64,000 nt of DNA from positions 1,767,501-1,831,500 of the forward strand of contig NZ_CP106679.1 of NCBI RefSeq assembly GCF_025502585.1, read 5' to 3'. This DNA comes from Reichenbachiella agarivorans (lineage in GTDB: Bacteria > Bacteroidota > Bacteroidia > Cytophagales > Cyclobacteriaceae). The position numbers were made by a program, and so were the translations under genes. Numbering within the stretch: the first letter of the stretch is position 1; the number at the start of each line of letters is the position of its first letter. The notes below the pieces were generated by a model, which searched no databases, was not told the DNA's origin, and saw only the letters and a list, made by a program, of their open reading frames with translations. Positions 45,309-53,052 of the stretch are shown one piece after another.

Positions 45309-45544
45309 TGCACTATGTTTTGGGTAAGAATATTGTTTTCTGTTACCGATCAATTTTGATGTATGACACGACAAGTGCAGTGACGACAGTTTTTGAAAAG
45401 TAGTCGTAAATATCGGCATTCCCATTGATGGAAAAGCCTATTCTTACTTTTATTTACTCCGTAGGTCTAGAATAGTCCGATTATTTGGGATGCATGGCTT
45501 CTTGGAGATAGAATCCCACTCGACGTAGAATGTACTCAAAGGCA

Positions 45545-45660
45545 GTGACTAGGTGAAGTTACAAACTTCACTTTCTTATCATTAGGAAGCAGAAAGCAGC
45601 ATTTTCCTCCTCTGGCGGACACGTGTAAATGCGGTATTGATCAAGGACAGTATCTTGAGG
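45545..45660 (-). repeat. Structured interspersed element, copy B
   Basis: Within the 558-nt gene-free stretch before 45867, the minus strand reads a core gcatttacacgtgtccgcca (45613-45632) and continues to aatgataa. About 54 of 63 positions match the element at 52964-53026, and nearly all differences are transitions. On the 3' side a perfect 8-bp hairpin with a 3-nt loop (gtgaagtt-tgt-aacttcac, 45553-45571) occupies the place where copy A has a different 7-bp hairpin. It lies upstream of the desaturase gene in the sense orientation. No ORF is seen. Confidence 0.75.
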
Positions 45661-45866
45661 TGTAGTTATAACCAGCTGATTCGACGTTTCCATCCTGATT
45701 GCATGGCACTTTATAGGGAAGGCTACAACATACATTTATACCCGTTCCGAAATACAACAAATCCATAACACTGGCTTTTCATCCAGTACACATCAAAGGA
45801 ATAGGTTTGCGCTTTTTAGCCATTGTTTTGTTTTTGGTAAAATGGTGGTTTGATGAACTAAATGCT

Positions 45867-52574: not shown

Positions 52575-52602
52575 AAGCCTTCTCGCGAGAGAGGGCTTTT
52601 TT
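52575..52602 (+). terminator. Terminator of the phytase operon
   Basis: The stem aagcc/ggctt with inner ctc/gag pairing is followed by six T. A ggtc-ttcg-gacc tetraloop hairpin (52558-52569) lies just before it. The phytase stop is 42 nt upstream. Confidence 0.8.
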
Positions 52603-52639
52603 GTTTCCGTCCAAATAGTAAGAAGCATTTCAGGAGTCA

Positions 52640-52891
52640 TGGTAGATCATCCGGTGGTAGTAGTGGATGGTCCGGGTGTGGTAGTGAAAGAATCCAGAGT
52701 GTCAGTCGATAGATCAGGAGTGATAGTGATAGAATCCGTAGCGGTAGTGAATGGTTCGGGTGTAGTAGTGGAAGAATCCGTAGCGATAGTGAATGAATCC
52801 GTGATCCTAGTCAATGGTTTCGGAGTGATAGTGAAAGAATCCGGAGTGATAGTGAATGGTTCCGGAGTTCTAGCCAATGAAAAAGGAGTTT
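52640..52891 (+). repeat. 21-bp tandem repeat array, copy 2
   Basis: The anchor tagtg (or a close variant) recurs at 52661, 52682, 52703, 52724, 52745, 52766, 52787, 52808, 52829, 52850 and 52871, with a divergent unit at 52640: twelve exact 21-bp steps. A typical unit is tagtgaatggttcgggtgta plus 1 nt. Because the unit lacks stops in one frame per strand, ORFs of 135 aa (plus) and 88 aa (minus) with 7-residue repeats appear; they are judged artefacts because the related array at 29843 is full of stops. It lies between the phytase terminator and copy A of the structured element. Confidence 0.9.
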
Positions 52892-52940
52892 GGGATGAAG
52901 TATGCAGGGTCAATTATATCATTTCTACTGCTGCATCACA

Positions 52941-53052
52941 AGATAGTACTTTTGACGAAAAAAGCATTTACACGTGTCCGCCAAAGGAGGGAAATGCTAC
53001 TTTCTACCTCCCAATGATAATAAGGCGTAGTGAATACTACGCTTAGTGGGGT
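52941..53052 (+). repeat. Structured interspersed element, copy A
   Basis: The element begins with a weak hairpin (caaga/ttttg, near 52940-52955). The core gcatttacacgtgtccgcca (52964-52983) follows, with gcattt paired to aaatgc (52992-52997), then ggagg...cctcc, and a 7-bp hairpin gcgtagt-gaat-actacgc (53025-53042) followed by gggg and six T. The same arrangement is in the minus-strand copy at 45545. It lies 74 nt before the start of a lipoprotein gene. The T-run could make the last hairpin a terminator. Confidence 0.75.

Follow-up and report, generated by a model that had tools for sequence, protein, structure and literature searches.

In the 64,000-nucleotide window of the Reichenbachiella agarivorans genome (the whole stretch of DNA that was analysed), two similar hairpin-bearing sequences, copies A and B, raise the question of what kind of element they belong to. 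They are identical at 54 of the 63 positions counted from gcattt, differing by eight transitions and one transversion; copy B is recovered at E = 6.4e-16 when the whole genome is searched with copy A, and the hairpins of both lie where the initial annotation had placed them. That annotation, which proposed a two-copy interspersed element with a conserved core, a structurally preserved flanking hairpin and perhaps a switching fold, is partly supported by the analysis presented here. REP/RAYT (RAYT being a REP-associated tyrosine transposase), which it had named for comparison, provides the answer: the copies are very probably fossil, non-autonomous RAYT/REP elements, acting as single-stranded DNA and not as a new RNA, with the left end and leader of a RAYT unit as their core.

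When the entire genome (4.47 Mb in a single contig, 98.18% complete) was searched with a 141-base query taken around copy A, 20 matches reached E<=0.001, and a more sensitive search of 212 kb of genome stretches plus the window gives 21 rows, copies or pieces. Thus, the element is interspersed, as had been claimed, but is not limited to two copies, and the interval first assigned to copy A was too short (Table 1). Eight of the 21 rows are long copies with the 'acgtgtccgcc..ggagg' segment (counted at no more than one mismatch, two further places having three), seven are short copies carrying GCATTTnnnAAATGC only, five have another repeat in place of the core, fused to the same outer hairpin, and one is a RAYT 3' end. 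Allowing up to three mismatches, the hairpin-plus-CTAG pattern has 15 matches in the genome and none for the reversed control. The outer hairpin was found in 14 of 20 own copies tested (at most one mismatch, CT required at the foot), the twenty-first row, L009:10691, which carries a different hairpin, being outside this set.

Table 1. Positions of copies A and B and of their parts within the window
Feature	Positions	Strand	Remarks
Element copy A	52914..53046	- (sense)	Internally deleted, right-truncated RAYT unit
Copy A outer hairpin	53024..53046	-	GGCGTAGT gaat ACTACGCT on +; sense foot CTAA (most copies CTAG)
Copy A inner hairpin	52964..52997	-	Arms gcattt/aaatgc; long-form insert in loop
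Copy A long-form insert	52971..52991	-	About 21 nt, CACGTGTCCGCCnnnGGAGGG, inside inner-hairpin loop
Copy A RAYT 3'-end remnant	52914..52933	-	Codons A-V-E-M-I and stop, joined to leader at common AGC(A); 18/19 bases as in reading-frame-anchored remnant in L013
Element copy B	45519..45673	+	RAYT unit left end (upstream motif, outer hairpin, inner hairpin with insert, leader); gene lost
Copy B foot and outer hairpin	45549..45571	+	CTAG foot; GTGAAGTT aca AACTTCAC
Copy B inner hairpin	45599..45632	+	Arms GCATTT/AAATGC; insert in loop

The exact 19-mer GCATTTRCACGTGTCCGCC has four matches in 257 billion bases (genome_contigs), in Clostridiaceae, a deltaproteobacterium, Bacteroidales and Paraburkholderia, where about 3.7 would be expected by chance (assuming even base composition, and with the window's own genome perhaps outside the scan). 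None of the four has an AAATGC partner or a CTAG hairpin nearby, and the candidate of a widespread conserved core was consequently rejected. Since matches elsewhere are at chance level and lack the hairpin context, the long-form insert is apparently confined, or almost confined, to this genome; it is missing from the seven short-form copies and from the RAYT leader of a same-genus genome, G002.

Several rearranged surroundings were also recorded. A degenerate 21/42/63-nt tandem array directly adjoins copy A (window 52660-52889), and a 135-codon ORF (52639-53046), probably no gene, crosses it into copy A. The repeat that replaces the core in five copies (L009:11488, L010:9604, 9851 and 10289, L011:9606) is a second composite one, GTCATGGTGAGG...CTTCGAGAACCTCAGAGTGACAAGG, making these copies chimeric. 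Short-form cores at L011:7900, 9826 and 11506 adjoin the stretch GATCCAAAATG.AGAAGGGTGTCCGCCCGTTG, whose resemblance, by eye, to the leader of another RAYT subgroup of the genus (L077, L081) suggests that ends may have been exchanged between RAYT lineages; GTGTCCGCC is found in the long-form insert too. In the stretch L009 9840-10700, a long-form core directly adjoins a decayed RAYT from another subgroup, which has hairpins of a different type (TTTTAAGTGATCC..GGAACACTTAAAA), and in this core a hairpin of that type has taken the place of the outer one. Close by, at L009 10691-12507 (1632.7-1634.5 kb of the genome), element copies and RAYT remnants take turns with small modules of two genes each; one includes a PIN-domain protein and one a ParE-type toxin, their partner ORFs match no Pfam family, and they resemble toxin-antitoxin modules in a repeat island.

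The nature of the core is revealed by what follows it elsewhere. Only one of 28 relatives searched with copy A gave a match, namely G002, where (L025/L062) the order is CTAGGTGAAGTTTGCAACTTCACC, a spacer, GCATTTTGTAAATGC and the leader, and then directly ATGGGATCAGCC..., the start of a RAYT. This leader contains the core in its short form together with a B-type hairpin, and its match with copy B (78%) spans 138 query bases, 30 of which lie upstream of CTAG. The G002 ORF is truncated (99 codons) and scores 61 bits with NF047646 (REP_Tyr_transpos), below the 80-bit cut-off that is passed by all five full-length family relatives scanned (88.2-103 bits). In the window's own genome, L010:10123 and L009:11742 continue into ATGGGATCAGCC with the opening codons of the RAYT, and L013:7317 runs on into a closely similar sequence. 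Judged from these sequences, the core is the left end and untranslated leader lying directly upstream of a RAYT gene. Because it stands before the RAYT start codon, the strand originally described is antisense to the transposase leader. An integron-like cassette array, the first idea to come from the clustering of copies, was dropped once the leader had been found before RAYT genes. It had been anticipated that a core belonging to a known insertion sequence end would refute a structured element; in kind this is what was found, although no named insertion sequence matched. Hairpins with a tetranucleotide foot are repeated in the genome and, in the case of the G002 leader with its truncated RAYT ORF, adjoin a RAYT-family gene. 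As the foot is CTAG or CTAA, and not the canonical GTAG/GTGG, only an atypical kind of REP is claimed.

RAYT matches occur in 120 of 148 same-family genomes searched, the own one included, and 30 of these loci were taken, the 14 closest and 16 more distant. In the closest units, which come from other genera, the left outer hairpin is typically CTAG-GTGTAGTT-tgc-AACTACAC, about 72 nt before the ATG, and the left inner hairpin (e.g., CAAATT-tgt-AATTTG) tends to lie about 38-40 nt before it. Inverted counterparts tend to follow the gene, the right inner at about +14 and the right outer at about +40 with a CAG foot; L132-L134 deviate, their right-hand hairpin being oriented as the left one. A left outer stem of at least 8 is present in 9/14 close units and 9/234 displaced windows, a left inner stem of at least 6 in 8/14 and 14/234, the right inner stem in 9/14 and the right outer in 8/14 (5/234 displaced windows each), both left hairpins in 6/14 and 4/234, and all four hairpins over threshold in 2/14 and 0/234. 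In the left outer hairpins of the close units listed, CT stands directly before A(A/G)G, in a scan that had no foot requirement. The 16 more distant loci have three left outer, one left inner, two right inner and one right outer hairpin, and both left hairpins in a single case; since they mostly lack the hairpins, the two-hairpin plan belongs to this RAYT subgroup. RAYTs of other subgroups of the genus carry hairpins of their own. When 295 family genomes were searched with the G002 leader, 27 loci outside G002 and the own genome (G000) were taken, most of the similarity lying in the outer hairpin. Only seven of them have a RAYT ORF, or part of one, in the flank (two of the seven being one gene in overlapping loci), so that most of these matches are taken as stray hairpins. 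A sequence search for relatives of the family RAYT with solved structures gave none at E<=0.01.

Preservation of the outer hairpin through compensating changes, claimed from two copies, is borne out by alignment A1 (21 sequences). In this alignment 98.0% of cells are paired, and two-sided changes are seen in 5/10 pairs (18 such cells), as many as in only 4/500 shuffles. Its covariation is 0.300 against 0.142 in shuffles, none of 500 being as high and slid versions reaching at most 0.104, while the number of pair types is unexceptional (52/500 shuffles). A1 comprises 12 of the 14 close family units (L128 and L130 are out, no left outer hairpin having been found in them; L143 was not used), together with eight of the 14 hairpins detected in own copies, the other six being near-identical; this selection favours the figure of 98% more than it affects the two-sided changes. 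The stems of copies A and B had been called entirely different, which is not the case: in register from the foot, CTAAGCGTAGT and CTAGGTGAAGT differ within the stem at C/T and T/A, and both differences are compensated on the opposite arm (columns 6-22 and 8-20). The pair of columns 4-24 is broken in copy A (A-C) and is G-T in copy B.

For the inner hairpin, 81.6% of cells are paired in alignment A3 (22 sequences, 21 distinct; 14 family units picked by loop motif only, and six own and two G002 copies by a pattern that requires the arms). Covariation amounts to 0.347 against 0.121 in shuffles (0/500 as high; slid maximum 0.103), with 22 changed cells that derive from few events, and the two-sided changes, in 3/7 pairs, are reached by 482/500 shuffles.

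The possibility that these sequences are a structured RNA (a small RNA, riboswitch or leader pseudoknot), selected as RNA through the switching or interleaving of ggagg/cctcc with gcattt/aaatgc, has to be weighed against a further alignment, A2, made of seven of the eight long copies (L015, diverged outside the core, is out). The hairpins are stable, and in A2 the proportion of paired cells is 97.6% for gcattt/aaatgc and 91.4% for ggagg/cctcc; moreover, a transposase mRNA leader could regulate translation, and REP hairpins may do so, as for IS200 transposases, according to passages of PMC3733652. However, no pair of either helix is changed on both sides, the A2 measures equal those of shuffles, and ggagg is missing from the seven short-form copies, so the switching or pseudoknotted fold of the initial annotation finds no support. 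The comparison with Rfam that it had advised returns, at gathering scores, nothing in the window but rRNA and tRNA, families outside Rfam being possible. As DNA, both strands of copies A and B fold better than dinucleotide shuffles (z -2.4 to -2.7), whereas as RNA the values are weaker (z -0.8 to -1.7). Selection as RNA is thus highly improbable, and the copies continue to be treated below as DNA elements of the RAYT/REP kind.

Where the elements begin was examined in 10 own copies (A, B and L016 left out), in which homology upstream of CTAG remains strong over about 20 nt and is lost gradually at about 27-29 nt, its outer limit being marked by a CCACTGAGCGTAG or CCACTGGTCGTAG motif. The motif CTGGGnGnAG stands at a like distance in 4/7 family RAYT units (L124, L126, L129, L140) and is not clear in L125, L131 and L134; G002 carries CTCGGCGTAG, and CTGGGTGTAG and the right-hand arm CTACACCCAG are reverse complements of each other. 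These few sequences suggest that the units may have terminal inverted repeats and an asymmetric, IS608-like layout. The outer upstream segment is missing from copy A and L016. Regarding the insertion sites, copy A was not found in the flank after the orthologous phytase gene in any of the five relatives compared (G001, G002, G004, G006, G007), homology ending at window 52602 in G007, at 52599 in G002 and earlier in G001, G004 and G006, and copy B was not found ahead of the desaturase gene in G002, the next gene there being a different one too. In the relatives compared, these places show breaks in homology only, and no clean empty site.

Copy A retains both sides of a deletion. Read in the RAYT sense, it matches the leader of L010:10123, which is still attached to ATGGGATCAGCC, at 18/18 bases up to CAGCA, and then passes into the last RAYT codons (A-V-E-M-I-stop; 18/19 bases), the two matches overlapping by AGC(A). 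The same leader/tail junction is present in L012 and L009:12965, the three junction loci lying at 1635, 1820 and 2372 kb. L012 runs on through AAGGTGTAGTTACAAACTACACCTAG, the right outer hairpin, and forms a unit about 160 nt long with CTAG at either end, whereas the right hairpin of copy A is lost and copy B is a left end only. In shuffles that preserve base content only, the tail match scores were equalled by 0/2000 in each of six comparisons and the leader match scores by 0 to 11 of 2000, the weakest leader match being that of L009:12965 (1 and 11 of 2000). Because one junction is common to three loci, the deleted form has most simply spread as a non-autonomous miniature element.

It could instead be argued that the copies were multiplied by segmental duplication and recombination between repeats, without transposition. 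They do cluster, at 1632-1635, 1885-1887 and 1930-1934 kb, and another repeat is fused to five of them; since several copies sit in such clusters, local duplication has contributed. Nevertheless, other copies are separately placed, at 637, 943, 1022, 1813, 1820, 1961 and 2372 kb, and both the recurrence of a single deletion junction at three loci and the fading of upstream homology at a common distance from CTAG speak against duplication, which as the general explanation is rather improbable beside the transposition of a RAYT unit and its deleted form.

The RAYTs of this genome are in fragments. A full-length family RAYT used as whole-genome query gave nine matches, all of them fragments, the longest covering 81 of 181 positions and all within about 1.1 kb of an element copy; another whole-genome RAYT search gave three matches, also fragments only. 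PF01797 detects one full-length IS200-type TnpA gene at 127 kb, which belongs to a different family from RAYT (NF033573, 74.4 bits), and one fragment at 1632 kb. The RAYT piece at 1021 kb has the same tail as the deletion copies. Since the RAYT matches are all partial, the elements are most likely immobile now. REPs have been reported to act as terminators or mRNA stabilisers, and the hairpins might, whatever their origin, now serve the host in such a way between genes: copy A lies between two same-strand ORFs, its hairpin followed by TTAGTGGGGTTTTTT. However, several bases separate the stem from the T run, and 6/20 own copies tested have no outer hairpin at up to one mismatch, as decay would predict rather than use by the host, so that such a role is considered unlikely in comparison with plain fossil elements.

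Taking all this into account, a full plan of the RAYT/REP unit can be proposed, assembled from several genomes: on the left an upstream motif, often CTGGGnGnAG, the CTAG foot with the outer hairpin (the REP), a spacer ending near TATC and the inner hairpin; on the right, after the RAYT gene, an inner hairpin and an outer hairpin with a CAG or CTAG foot. In single-stranded DNA, the RAYT protein would recognise the outer hairpin in its folded form together with the foot, would cut and rejoin there, the cut sites being likewise presumed, and would move in trans any DNA bounded by two such ends. Units in this genome would have lost the gene by internal deletion, the deleted form spreading as a miniature, and the RAYTs would then have decayed, leaving fossils. 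Several observations stand against this explanation: the cognate pair is pieced together, no intact RAYT of the exact lineage having been seen; several own-genome RAYT fragments (those at 1632, 1961 and 944 kb) appear on inspection by eye to be closer to other subgroups within the genus; the complete set of four hairpins is rare even among the close units, and the distant loci mostly lack it; the foot is not the GT[AG]G of canonical REPs; the leader match of L009:12965 is weak; local duplication has contributed to the clusters; and a clean empty site was not found. More tentatively, and with rather less than even confidence, the family RAYTs may have been true transposons until recently, with asymmetric, IS200/IS605-like two-hairpin ends and moved whole, copy A, L012 and L009:12965 then being the predicted intermediates leading towards REPINs, units that lost the gene by a deletion between the leader and the last codons while the ends remained mobile in trans.

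The elements are thus of a known kind, and what is new is their two-hairpin CTAG ends, the covariation that supports these, and the preservation of intermediates between a RAYT unit and a REPIN-like miniature. They resemble IS200/IS605 in having a HuH Y1 transposase and subterminal hairpins, with left homology that begins about 27 nt ahead of the hairpin foot and a right end that follows closely on its hairpin. An asymmetric end layout of that sort is known for IS608. The protein here is, by contrast, of the RAYT type, the genome's one full-length IS200-type TnpA being a different gene.

By description, the units look like those of RAYT/TnpA_REP subclass 2.6, which the available text of PMC6006769 gives as mostly from Bacteroidetes, with atypical flanking structures lacking GT[AG]G and copies elsewhere in the genome; the main-text parts of that account describe neither a CTAG foot nor the pairing of an outer with an inner hairpin, nor copies with an internal deletion. 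For TnpA_REP of E. coli, passages of PMC8266576 report cleavage of REP in single-stranded substrates, with the GTAG motif essential. TIRtrons/TIRYTs, as presented in parts of PMC3733652, likewise have RAYT-like genes with inverted repeats that are not GTAG REPs, some TIRs being self-complementary and repeated in the genome, but many TIRs there share GGGGWSAS, whereas here the ends are CTAG/CTGGG with two hairpins each. The word 'Bacteroidetes' does not occur in the main text of PMC2817692, and among titles, abstracts and open passages (subscription papers and supplements lying outside this scope) there was no closer account of Bacteroidetes RAYT ends or of internal-deletion forms.

In the sections of PMC3116915 consulted, REPINs/BIMEs consist of two inverted REP-like hairpins that bound a short non-autonomous unit, presumably mobilised by a RAYT acting in trans, and L012, with both hairpins inverted on CTAG feet, is such a unit. 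It differs in that the interior is still recognisable as RAYT leader and last codons, in a copy number of about 20 instead of hundreds, and in that the RAYT is broken, whole-genome searches having given no intact cognate gene. A sequence description (CTAG foot, outer and inner hairpin, covariation) is thereby provided for RAYT ends called only 'atypical' in the text of PMC6006769 that was available. As both the leader and the stop codon of the RAYT survive in the miniature, joined at a junction that can be traced, and close RAYTs in other genera are full length, the step from an autonomous unit to a non-autonomous hairpin pair becomes directly testable. This genome seems to preserve, in legible form, a midpoint on the path from a complete transposon to its tiny parasitic copies, left by an element that seems to have died out in this bacterium.
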